Assembly: GCA_944325895.1 (NCBI GenBank)
Contig: CALVCA010000004.1
Location: 1-64,000 of the forward strand
Length of the DNA: 64,000 bases
From: Candidatus Gastranaerophilales bacterium
Lineage (GTDB): Bacteria > Cyanobacteriota > Vampirovibrionia > Gastranaerophilales > Gastranaerophilaceae
Reading direction: 5' to 3'
The notes beneath the pieces were generated by a model. The model was not told where the DNA came from. It did no database searches and worked only from the letters and a program-made list of their open reading frames with translations. Shown here in pieces: positions 5,776 to 24,823 of the stretch; position 1 is the stretch's first letter, and the number at the start of each line of letters is the position of its first letter. A program made the translations under genes and the position numbers.

Positions 5776-6567
5776 TTATTTTCCGAATAATACAGTTCTT
5801 GCTGCATCATTTGCAGGTTCAACTGTTTGACCATGGAAGATAACCGGATAGATATCTTTTACGTTTGCATTATCTACTTCACAAGCATCATCAACTTCTT
5901 CACCGCTATCGCATTTTATTGTTGTATTTGGAGCTGTATCACCATTTACGTCAATAAATCCAATGCATTTTTCATTCGGAGCAGAACAATTAGCAGCTCC
6001 ATTAGTACCCTTTAAATAACCAAATACTGTTCCATCAGCAAGAGCATACACTCTCCAAGCCGATGCCGTAGGGGCTGCAACTGTTTTATCTATTTCAACA
6101 GGCTTTCCTACCTCTATACCATCACATAAAGAGTCACCATCTTCATCTTGAGGATCACTCGCAGTTCCCGTACAAACGTGTTCAACATGATAAGTCATAG
6201 CATCTTCCAAAGCCTCTGTACCAGCAGCTGCATCTTCTGCTTTTTTTCCGGCATTGGCAAAATAAGTATCTGTAATATCAGTAGCTGATTGCAAACGGTC
6301 TTTCAACATTGCTCCTAAAGAACCATCCGTTGCTTCCGCCGTTCCTGTAGCTTCGTCTTTTTTCAATGTAGAAAAATCTGTGTCTTCCATTGCAACGTTC
6401 ATTAACACTGCCTGATTTAATGATGACAATGCTTTTTTGTACGCTGATTTAAATTGTGCTCCGTTTGTGTTTGAAATCAATGTCGGGATTGTCATAGCTG
6501 CTACTACACCTATGATACCAAGTGTGATTAACACTTCCGCTAACGTAAAACCGAATCTTTTTGTCAT
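5776..6567 (-). CDS. Type IV prepilin-like protein A (variable-middle pilin)
   Basis: A 263-residue precursor beginning MTKRFG then FTLAEVLITLGIIGVVAA. Prepilin peptidase should cut after Gly6, giving N-terminal Phe and Glu at +5, followed by the hydrophobic assembly helix. The body is rich in Asp, Ala and Thr with four or more Cys, as in class-specific pseudopilins. Residues 1-68 and the last ~30 (DIYPV.FHGQTVEPANDAARTVLFGK) match protein B almost exactly, while the middle diverges in sequence and length. An upstream in-frame ATG at 6630 is rejected because it lies inside the leader hairpin; the chosen ATG has AGGAAG 7 nt upstream. No pilus assembly genes are nearby. It is likely secreted or surface exposed. 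Confidence 0.85.
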   Translation of the reverse strand: MTKRFGFTLAEVLITLGIIGVVAAMTIPTLISNTNGAQFKSAYKKALSSLNQAVLMNVAMEDTDFSTLKKDEATGTAEATDGSLGAMLKDRLQSATDITDTYFANAGKKAEDAAAGTEALEDAMTYHVEHVCTGTASDPQDEDGDSLCDGIEVGKPVEIDKTVAAPTASAWRVYALADGTVFGYLKGTNGAANCSAPNEKCIGFIDVNGDTAPNTTIKCDSGEEVDDACEVDNANVKDIYPVIFHGQTVEPANDAARTVLFGK

Positions 6568-6612
6568 AATTTTTCTTCCTCTCTTTTTTTTGTACAACTG
6601 AGCTTCGCTCTT

Positions 6613-6742
6613 CAATTTACAAAACCCCATTGCAGCCGTCGATTATTGAAAGGTGATGTCAATAATCTCTTTTGACATAATAAATCCGTCATATATTGTT
6701 TGTTCATAGCAATATACGACTGCAATAGGGTTTTGTAAATTG
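6613..6742 (-). ncRNA. Structured 5' leader RNA of prepilin A
   Basis: Two 26-nt arms (6717-6742 and 6613-6638) pair along their whole length, with only two G-U wobbles. The ~78-nt interior holds further hairpins, TATATTG/CAATATA and GATTATTGA/TCAATAATC. It lies between the leader ORF and the prepilin start, so it should be part of the mRNA. It could be a regulatory leader or, less likely, a MITE-like insertion. An almost identical copy lies at 19514-19643. Confidence 0.55.
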
Positions 6743-6759: not shown

Positions 6760-6849
6760 TTAGAGGAAGTATACCCCCCCCCTACATGTGCTCGCTGTAA
6801 GGGTTTTGGTCACTTCTGCTAAAAATTTTTCCGCTCTGTTTTTCTTCAT
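6760..6849 (-). CDS. Leader small ORF with internal G9 tract (copy A)
   Basis: A 29-codon ORF starting MKKNRAEKFLAEVTKTLTAS and ending TCRGGVYFL. The G9 run (6774-6782) encodes part of Arg-Gly-Gly-Val. The ATG lies exactly 6 nt after a TAAAAT -10 box, so it would be translated from a leaderless mRNA. Loss of one G would extend the frame to 77 codons, through the structured leader; gain of one G would stop it within a few codons. The identical ORF precedes prepilin B. It is not a known family; the role as a leader peptide is inferred from position. GCGGAAAA near its start and TTTTCCGC after its stop could pair. Confidence 0.5.
   Translation of the reverse strand: MKKNRAEKFLAEVTKTLTASTCRGGVYFL
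6774..6782 (-). repeat. Homopolymeric G9 tract (C9 on + strand)
   Basis: Nine consecutive G on the coding strand in a strongly AT-rich genome, flanked TGTA-G9-TATAC. The same tract is in module B, and a G10 run preceded by the same TGTA is in locus C. Such runs are classic sites of slipped-strand length change. Confidence 0.9.
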
Positions 6850-6855
6850 GCCCTT

Positions 6856-6884
6856 ATTTTATTAATTTTTCTCCTGTTTGTCAA
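6856..6884 (-). promoter_or_regulatory. Strong sigma70 promoter of prepilin module A
   Basis: TTGACA (6884-6879), exactly 17 nt, TAAAAT (6861-6856), then 6 nt to the leader ORF ATG. It implies a ~280-nt leader before the prepilin. Confidence 0.75.
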
Positions 6885-18673: not shown

Positions 18674-19468
18674 TTATTTTCCGAATAATACAGTTCTTGC
18701 TGCATCATTTGCAGGTTCAACTGTTTGACCATGGAAGAATACCGGATAGATATCTTTTACGTTTGCATTTGATACTTTACAAGGAGCAGTATCTGTTCCA
18801 GATACAACAGGAGTAGCACTTGTACTATCACAAGCTATGGCAGTATTAGGAGCTGTATCACTATTTACATCAATAAACCCAATACAATCTTCATTTAATG
18901 TTGCACAATTGGCTGCATCTTTTATATAACCAAACACTGTACCATCAGCAAGAGCATACACCCTCCATGTCTCAGCAGATGCGTCAGTTACATCTCTATT
19001 TATAGTAACCTCCTCACCAGCTTGTTTTCCAAAACACTGATTTGTATCAGCAGTACCTGTAGCAAGTTCATCCGCACGACATTCACGTGTTACAACATAT
19101 TTTAATACAGGAGAACCAGTTATGGTATTACTATCTTCATCTTCTGCGACACCCAATGCGTCAAAATAAGTATCTGTAATATCAGTAGCTGATTGTAAAC
19201 GTTGTTCTAACATTGCACCTAATGAACCTTTCGTATCTGTAGCTTTATCCTCTCCGTCAGCTACCAATGTGGAAAAATCTGTGTCTTCCATTGCAACGTT
19301 CATCAACACTGCCTGGTTTAATGATGACAATGCTTTTTTGTACGCTGATTTAAATTGTGCTCCGTTTGTGTTTGAAATCAATGTCGGGATTGTCATAGCT
19401 GCTACTACACCTATGATACCAAGTGTGATTAACACTTCCGCTAACGTAAAACCGAATCTTTTTGTCAT
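18674..19468 (-). CDS. Type IV prepilin-like protein B (variable-middle pilin)
   Basis: 264 residues. Positions 1-68 are the same as prepilin A (MTKRFG then FTLAEVLITLGIIG...) and the C-terminal ~30 are nearly the same. Islands inside the middle are also shared: SLGAML..RLQSATDITDTYF, WRVYALADGTVFGY, CIGFIDVN.DTAPNT. The rest differs, with changed cysteine spacing. Prepilin peptidase should cut after Gly6. The ATG at 19468 has AGGAAG upstream; the in-frame ATG at 19531 is inside the leader hairpin. A mosaic of constant and variable blocks with synonymous differences confined to few sites suggests gene conversion between A and B. Confidence 0.85.
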   Translation of the reverse strand: MTKRFGFTLAEVLITLGIIGVVAAMTIPTLISNTNGAQFKSAYKKALSSLNQAVLMNVAMEDTDFSTLVADGEDKATDTKGSLGAMLEQRLQSATDITDTYFDALGVAEDEDSNTITGSPVLKYVVTRECRADELATGTADTNQCFGKQAGEEVTINRDVTDASAETWRVYALADGTVFGYIKDAANCATLNEDCIGFIDVNSDTAPNTAIACDSTSATPVVSGTDTAPCKVSNANVKDIYPVFFHGQTVEPANDAARTVLFGK

Positions 19469-19513: not shown

Positions 19514-19643
19514 CAATTTACAAAACCCCATTGCAGCCGTCGATTATTGAAAGGTGATGTCAATAATCTCTTTTGACATAATAAATCCGTCATATATTGT
19601 TTGTTCATAGCAATATACGACTGCAATAGGGTTTTGTAAATTG
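19514..19643 (-). ncRNA. Structured 5' leader RNA of prepilin B
   Basis: Same 26-bp stem with internal hairpins as at 6613-6742, essentially identical in sequence, and again between the leader ORF and the prepilin start. Confidence 0.55.
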
Positions 19644-19660: not shown

Positions 19661-19750
19661 TTAGAGGAAGTATACCCCCCCCCTACATGTGCTCGCTGTA
19701 AGGGTTTTGGTCACTTCTGCTAAAAATTTTTCCGCTCTGTTTTTCTTCAT
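19661..19750 (-). CDS. Leader small ORF with internal G9 tract (copy B)
   Basis: The same 29-codon ORF as at 6760-6849, with G9 at 19675-19683 and ATG 6 nt after the -10 box. Tract length is equal in both copies in this assembly. Conservation of the frame between copies is expected from recent duplication, so it is not independent proof of coding. Confidence 0.5.
   Translation of the reverse strand: MKKNRAEKFLAEVTKTLTASTCRGGVYFL
19675..19683 (-). repeat. Homopolymeric G9 tract, module B
   Basis: C9 on the + strand, within the leader ORF of prepilin B; same flanks as in module A. Confidence 0.9.
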
Positions 19751-19756
19751 GCCCTT

Positions 19757-19785
19757 ATTTTATTAATTTTTCTCCTGTTTGTCAA
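19757..19785 (-). promoter_or_regulatory. Strong sigma70 promoter of prepilin module B
   Basis: TTGACA, 17 nt, TAAAAT, 6 nt, ATG: identical to module A. Confidence 0.75.
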
Positions 19786-24742: not shown

Positions 24743-24823
24743 TCAATTCCGACTCTGCTTTGAGCAAGTCGCCCCCCCCCCTACAATCAGTTTTTGATAT
24801 ATTTTTGCCCCTTCTTTTAACAT
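24743..24823 (-). CDS. Leader small ORF with G10 tract before prepilin C
   Basis: A 26-codon ORF, MLKEGAKIYQKLIVGGGATC then SKQSRN. The ATG is preceded by GGAGGG at good spacing. The G10 tract (24772-24781) encodes the three glycines plus the first base of the next codon. In the present sequence it stops at 24743. With nine G it would enter the frame of prepilin C, which is open from the tract to its start, yielding a continuous ORF. The ORF resembles the A/B leader ORFs only in the GTA/GGG region and position. Confidence 0.5.
   Translation of the reverse strand: MLKEGAKIYQKLIVGGGATCSKQSRN
24772..24781 (-). repeat. Homopolymeric G10 tract, prepilin C leader
   Basis: C10 on the + strand, flanked (minus strand) by TGTA on the 5' side as in modules A and B. 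Confidence 0.9.

Follow-up and report, generated by a model that had tools for sequence, protein, structure and literature searches.

A run of nine guanines lies inside a 29-codon ORF that starts directly at a consensus promoter, and a pilin-like gene follows behind a structured RNA. The question raised by this locus (module A) is whether the length of the G tract decides if ribosomes cross the RNA fold and, if so, which gene would be controlled. An earlier note on this DNA had suggested phase-variable attenuation, in which ribosome traffic over the downstream fold depends on tract length. We addressed this question in the window, a stretch of 64,000 nucleotides from a Candidatus Gastranaerophilales genome, and in related genomes.

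Promoter, leader ORF and pilin genes

On the minus strand of module A, TTGACA (6884-6879) is followed after 17 nt by TAAAAT (6861-6856) and after another 6 nt by an ATG at 6849. This promoter is the best sigma-70 match of the region, with 11 of 12 consensus positions, and the ORF translates as MKKNRAEKFLAEVTKTLTASTCRGGVYFL*. The features of module A and of the related module B, apart from the RNA domain of module A, are as follows.

6856..6884, minus strand: module A promoter TTGACA-N17-TAAAAT, 6 nt before the leader ATG, leaderless
6760..6849, minus strand: module A leader ORF in the G9 register, 29 codons plus stop
6774..6782, minus strand: module A G9 tract, within codons 23-26 of the leader ORF
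6578..6583, minus strand: Shine-Dalgarno GAGAGG of the module A pilin (sequence)
5776..6567, minus strand: module A pilin, 263 aa, MTKRFGFTLAEVLITLG..., PF07963 and TIGR02532 above cut-off
19757..19785, minus strand: module B promoter (sequence and comparison)
19661..19750, minus strand: module B leader ORF, G9 at 19675-19683 (sequence)
19514..19643, minus strand: module B structured RNA domain (covariance model search)
18674..19468, minus strand: module B pilin, 264 aa, PF07963 and TIGR02532 above cut-off

The promoter, the leaderless ATG and the 29-codon ORF with its G9 tract are thus present on the minus strand as the earlier note had described them. A tract of 8 G lengthens the ORF, as the note had also said, to 78 codons rather than the 77 it had counted, and a tract of 10 G does stop it early, at 31 codons. 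Runs of at least 8 G form three tracts in the window (7 overlapping matches), where 0.09 matches are expected by chance. The claim that module B repeats the arrangement holds as well, its leader region being 99 % identical to that of module A over 386 nt. A third copy is located on another contig (G000:C10:27351, 86 % identity).

The products of both modules begin with a prepilin N-terminal cleavage/methylation motif followed by a hydrophobic helix and are therefore type IV pilin-like; the module A pilin also resembles geopilin and MshA chains, though its matches are weak. An alignment-free structure prediction of the pilin reached a mean pLDDT of 41, too low to be useful. The first 60 residues of the two pilins are identical, with 67 % identity overall. 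Shared N-terminal 60 residues and 99 % identical leaders thus accompany diverged C-terminal parts, a pattern that looks as if it came from gene conversion or from selection for surface variation. In the pilins of three homologous loci (L102, L106 and L182), extra residues between MTKR and the cleavage motif, for example MTKRFGVPQARQDRSNALTAFTLAEV, make the prepilin leader longer.

The layout is conserved within one genus

The relatives used for comparison are Candidatus Gastranaerophilales metagenome-assembled genomes, one genome per species. With 22 loci as its basis, a covariance model of the RNA domain (R1) detects 27 occurrences, spread over 13 of the 16 genomes of the genus. The search covered 146 genomes of the family in 41 genera, and it found the domain in no genus but this one. 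The order promoter, ATG, tract, RNA domain and pilin is common to these 27 places. The 6-nt spacing between the -10 box and the ATG is kept in nearly all of 25 homologs and, almost without exception, these have no Shine-Dalgarno before the leader ATG. Since promoter, spacing and lack of a Shine-Dalgarno are all conserved, a leaderless start is well supported, with transcription predicted to begin at or beside the ATG.

A covarying RNA domain with invariant loops

Between the leader tract and the pilin, the following RNA elements were found in module A.

6613..6742, minus strand: structured RNA domain (model R1), outer stem and inner hairpins, from covariation
6700..6710, minus strand: loop 1, GCUAUGAACAA, invariant, exact complement of UUGUUCAUAGC in the 5'UTR of the pilin gene P0
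6648..6657, minus strand: loop 3, AUCACCUUUC, with ACCUUUC invariant, complementary to the P0 Shine-Dalgarno region and more weakly to that of its own pilin

The module A domain scores 136.6 bits with model R1, of which the locus itself is part. The consensus consists of a long outer stem with inner hairpins, and 19 of the 32 pairs are changed on both sides. Stem cells are paired in 97.3 % of cases, compared to 84.5 % in shuffles and 34-51 % in slid controls, and the stem covariation score is 0.485 against 0.238 in shuffles. Unlike the stems, GCUAUGAACA and ACCUUUC are the same in every sequence, and both fall in hairpin loops of the consensus.

Three known kinds of element were considered and rejected for this domain. 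It has no Rfam match at gathering score, which argues against a known Rfam cis-regulatory RNA or riboswitch. An intrinsic terminator is rejected as well: scans of three loci (the window, L092 and L103) showed nothing terminator-like on the way from leader to pilin. The long inverted repeat of the domain had suggested a mobile element, which is rejected because the stems covary around fixed loops and because promoter and pilin are retained along with the layout. A promoter-like site (10/12) is found on the opposite strand inside the domain in the window (6672-6699, plus strand) and in L092 (620-593, minus strand), and is absent from L103.

Tract length sets the register of the leader ORF

The earlier note had named two tests beforehand, tract variation and conservation of the ORF in relatives. 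The tract does vary: lengths of 8, 9 and 10 G are found among the homologs and every one of the three registers is represented, the variation being between species and paralogs. Promoter and tract are both intact at 22 loci; 3 of these are already in the long register, 13 would enter it by losing one G and 6 by gaining one. Two near-identical copies in one genome, L106 (G10, long) and L191 (G9, short), are one G apart, and the close orthologs L099, L102 and L103, with 10, 9 and 8 G respectively, differ mainly in the number of G. Two further homologs have a fixed state: L091, which has no tract, is fixed long by a single 73-codon ORF through the domain, and L104, with an interrupted tract and a short ORF, is fixed short. 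We infer that the tracts would slip within populations.

The ORF is conserved as an open frame across the RNA fold in every homolog. At 23 of 23 tract loci, one register takes the leader ORF (65-104 codons) through the 135-nt RNA domain. This long frame has 8 stops in 1375 codons at the 23 loci, all at +159 or beyond, at the 3' end of the domain, compared to 87 and 144 stops in the other two frames. The loci are related, so these counts are not independent, but divergence has brought the mean column identity down to 61 %. In the other two frames the first stop is at most 37 nt from the tract in all but one case, and the positions of the stops turn over among loci. Since tract length varies while the long frame stays open over the fold, tract-dependent ribosome traffic is well supported, and a tract that gates ribosomes over the RNA domain would be the best-supported step of any mechanism at this locus.

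This part of the attenuation proposal stands. Classical attenuation of the downstream gene does not follow from it: the three loci scanned have no terminator-like site, the predicted sequestration of the gene's own ribosome site is inconsistent across loci, and the loops fit the mRNA of another pilin better.

P0 mRNA is a candidate target of the two loops

That other pilin gene, P0, is a stand-alone gene without a tract. In the same genome as the window, UUGUUCAUAGC lies in its 5'UTR (G000:C5:16348-16358). Within the genus, 14 genomes have the motif upstream of P0 (G003 has two copies), and G004 has it at a P0 of which the start of a contig shows only a part. The P0 Shine-Dalgarno region GAAAGGUGAA is complementary to loop 3. 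All 25 leader-P0 pairs retain both pairings at 9-12 bp each, and the predicted energies, which ignore tertiary context, are about -16 and -14 to -18 kcal/mol compared to about -5.5 and -6 for shuffles. The pilin mRNA of the module itself has no loop 1 site, and loop 3 reaches mostly -8 to -10 kcal/mol with the module's own Shine-Dalgarno, which is usually GGUAA rather than GGUGA and so pairs more weakly. The missing loop 1 site together with the weakened GGUAA pairing would resemble avoidance of self-silencing. Other targets of loop 1 are rejected, since 20 further sites of the 11-mer were fetched and all lie outside a P0-type 5'UTR context.

P0 orthologs of five other genera have the Shine-Dalgarno region and lack the 11-mer UUGUUCAUAGC, and in G005, of the same genus, both domain and 11-mer are missing. 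Two genomes, G014 and G004 (89 % and 85 % complete), have the P0 site with no domain detected. Throughout the genus the entire P0 5'UTR is conserved and the loops are invariant too, so that neither partner offers variation by which covariation across the trans pairing could be judged. In the unpaired P0 5'UTR, the site is predicted to be only partly free in G013 and G003. A point against P0 as the target is that loop 3 also fits the general Shine-Dalgarno; it might act in cis, most strongly at L094, L098 and L101.

Tracts and pilin-like genes in the rest of the genome

The 1.69 Mb genome of the window (G000, 47 contigs) contains 37 G/C runs of at least 8 and 67 matches to the prepilin motif PF07963. 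For about 30 of the 37 tracts, the short ORF around the tract directly precedes a pilin-like gene. There are two layouts. In the first, that of class 1 (G) and class 2 (C), the tract ORF is fused to the pilin in one register. The second is that of class A, formed by modules A and B and the copy at G000:C10:27351, with a separate leader ORF, a structured RNA and a pilin with its own start.

The fusion-type loci are in the open register at 3 of about 30 places (G000:C1:11388, C2:73367 and C3:99551), one of which was opened by an insertion outside its tract. The third tract of the window, G10 at 24772-24781, lies in a 26-codon ORF (24743-24823, minus strand) that with 9 G would fuse in frame to a pilin-like gene (24705-23752, 356 aa); about 8 sister loci sharing its downstream motif were found, all in this genome.

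The C-tract pilins (G000:C2:26751, C3:83016, C4:92361 and others; L193-L212) have a leader reading MKTIEKLADKIVAPP.. or ..KAVQIVAPPR. Across 9 genomes of the genus, 41 such sites were found, 38 of them with C9, and nearly every locus examined requires the same one-base shift (C10 or C7) for the pilin frame. This constancy of C9 resembles programmed frameshifting or transcriptional slippage more than phase variation. Class A and class 1 pilin mRNAs contain G9-11 and class 2 mRNAs C9, and the two could in principle pair through 9 G-C pairs. The G is on the minus strand of the contig for 34 of the 37 runs, though class 1 and class 2 genes are oppositely oriented; with contig orientations as assembled, a replication-strand bias is a possible cause.

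What the tract would control

We give a probability of roughly 45 % to the reading that the phase-variable leader ORF controls the folding of an RNA that silences the default pilin P0 in trans. Each module would then consist of an alternative pilin gene whose leader contains a phase-variable riboregulator. Two of the three registers would make the ribosome stop short of the RNA domain, within a few tens of bases after the tract, and the untranslated domain would fold and expose its two loops. Because these are complementary to UUGUUCAUAGC and to the Shine-Dalgarno region in the P0 5'UTR, their pairing would keep P0 from being translated. In the third register, translation through the domain would hold it unfolded, and P0 would be released. 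Pairing with P0 in the cell, the silencing of P0 and the sign of the effect are all predictions from sequence. The long-register ribosomes would finish close to where the module's own pilin starts, and translation of that pilin may change as well. More broadly, an antisense domain in the mRNA of an alternative pilin, set by a homopolymer, would allow heritable pilin switching without a protein regulator, a conclusion that we hold tentatively.

The main rival places the effect in cis: the long register would melt the domain and turn the module's own pilin on, the short registers would keep it off through loop 3 as an anti-Shine-Dalgarno or through Rho acting on untranslated leader RNA, and the complementarity to P0 would be secondary. 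The same logic has been demonstrated for the Pil1 pilus (PMC3894217), the long ORF ends just before the pilin start, and loop 3 pairs with its own Shine-Dalgarno by 6-11 bp at all loci. These pairings show no covariation (permutation p 0.96), the predicted accessibility of the Shine-Dalgarno ranges from 0.1 to 0.9 across loci, the invariant loop 1 has no good partner in cis, and the three loci scanned lack a terminator-like site. In module A the first bases after the tract also pair strongly with the pilin Shine-Dalgarno (-12.9); as a general anti-Shine-Dalgarno right behind the tract this was rejected, the pairing not being general among loci (permutation p 0.05). We regard control in cis alone as a serious but doubtful account, and control in cis and silencing in trans may coexist.

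Recoding is unlikely. Slippage of RNA polymerase or of the ribosome would here mix short and long leader products in each cell, whatever the register of the DNA. The short register at most loci fits this idea, as do the related C9 genes of the genus, fixed at C9 and always in need of the same one-base shift. Class A, on the other hand, demands +1 and -1 shifts at different loci and three loci are already long, so that no single programmed shift fits.

It is also conceivable that the long frame encodes a functional small protein and that the RNA fold is incidental, since a recognisable peptide (IAMNKQYMT..LLISPFNN) recurs in the long frame. The conserved residues fall on invariant RNA loops while the stems covary, and the peptide sequence is not kept, since indels in the module A group have moved its C-terminal part into another frame; we consider this account very improbable. 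That an unimportant G run lies beside an unrelated hairpin by chance is scarcely credible, with tracts far above expectation, the layout present in 13 genomes, an open frame and covarying stems.

Comparison with known systems

A literature search joining leader peptide, slipped-strand mispairing and attenuation returned the Pil1 paper alone, and no paper was found that joins Gastranaerophilales with phase variation. In Streptococcus gallolyticus, the sortase pili Pil1 and Pil3 are under phase-variable leader-peptide attenuation with GCAGA repeats and an intrinsic terminator (Danne et al. 2014, PMC3894217). Out-of-frame changes of the Pil1 repeat lengthen the leader peptide so that ribosomes reach the stem-loop, and the short state is that of the majority (PMC3894217). 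Both systems have a simple repeat within a short leader ORF upstream of a pilus gene, and in both a register change carries the ORF into or through a stem-loop (here at 23 of 23 tract loci); the short state is the commoner one in class A too. Unlike Pil1, class A combines a homopolymeric G tract with a leaderless ORF and precedes type IV pilin-like genes, and its multi-hairpin RNA covaries, lacks a terminator and has loops complementary to the mRNA of another pilin. The lack of an intrinsic terminator and the differences in repeat type, start and likely target set class A apart from the Pil1 type, the nearest system known.

The nearest case of a leader acting in trans is SreA of Listeria, a SAM riboswitch leader that is released by termination and acts on prfA mRNA (PMC8079631). 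Unlike SreA, the class A domain has no known ligand or terminator and is crossed by a tract-dependent ORF. In Helicobacter pylori a variable G-repeat in an mRNA leader is likewise combined with RNA-RNA pairing: RepG binds the G-repeat itself in the tlpB-hp0102 leader, and the repeat is not described as coding (PMC8295292). In class A the repeat sets the reading frame instead, and other loops would pair.

If the reading of silencing in trans is true, phase-variable leader-peptide control, for which the literature search gave only two pilus loci of one Streptococcus, would also operate in an uncultured relative of cyanobacteria from the gut. This kind of control would gain a new layer, with slippage controlling an antisense RNA via ribosome traffic, and would explain how one pilin could replace another. 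With about 67 pilin-like genes, about 30 of them behind G/C tracts, pilin switching may be a main trait of these bacteria. The outcome would work like the flagellin switch of Salmonella, in which DNA inversion at fljBA is combined with the protein repressor FljA (PMC10399903). There too, the locus of the alternative filament subunit also carries the repressor of the default subunit gene; in class A that role would fall to a G tract and an RNA in the leader.
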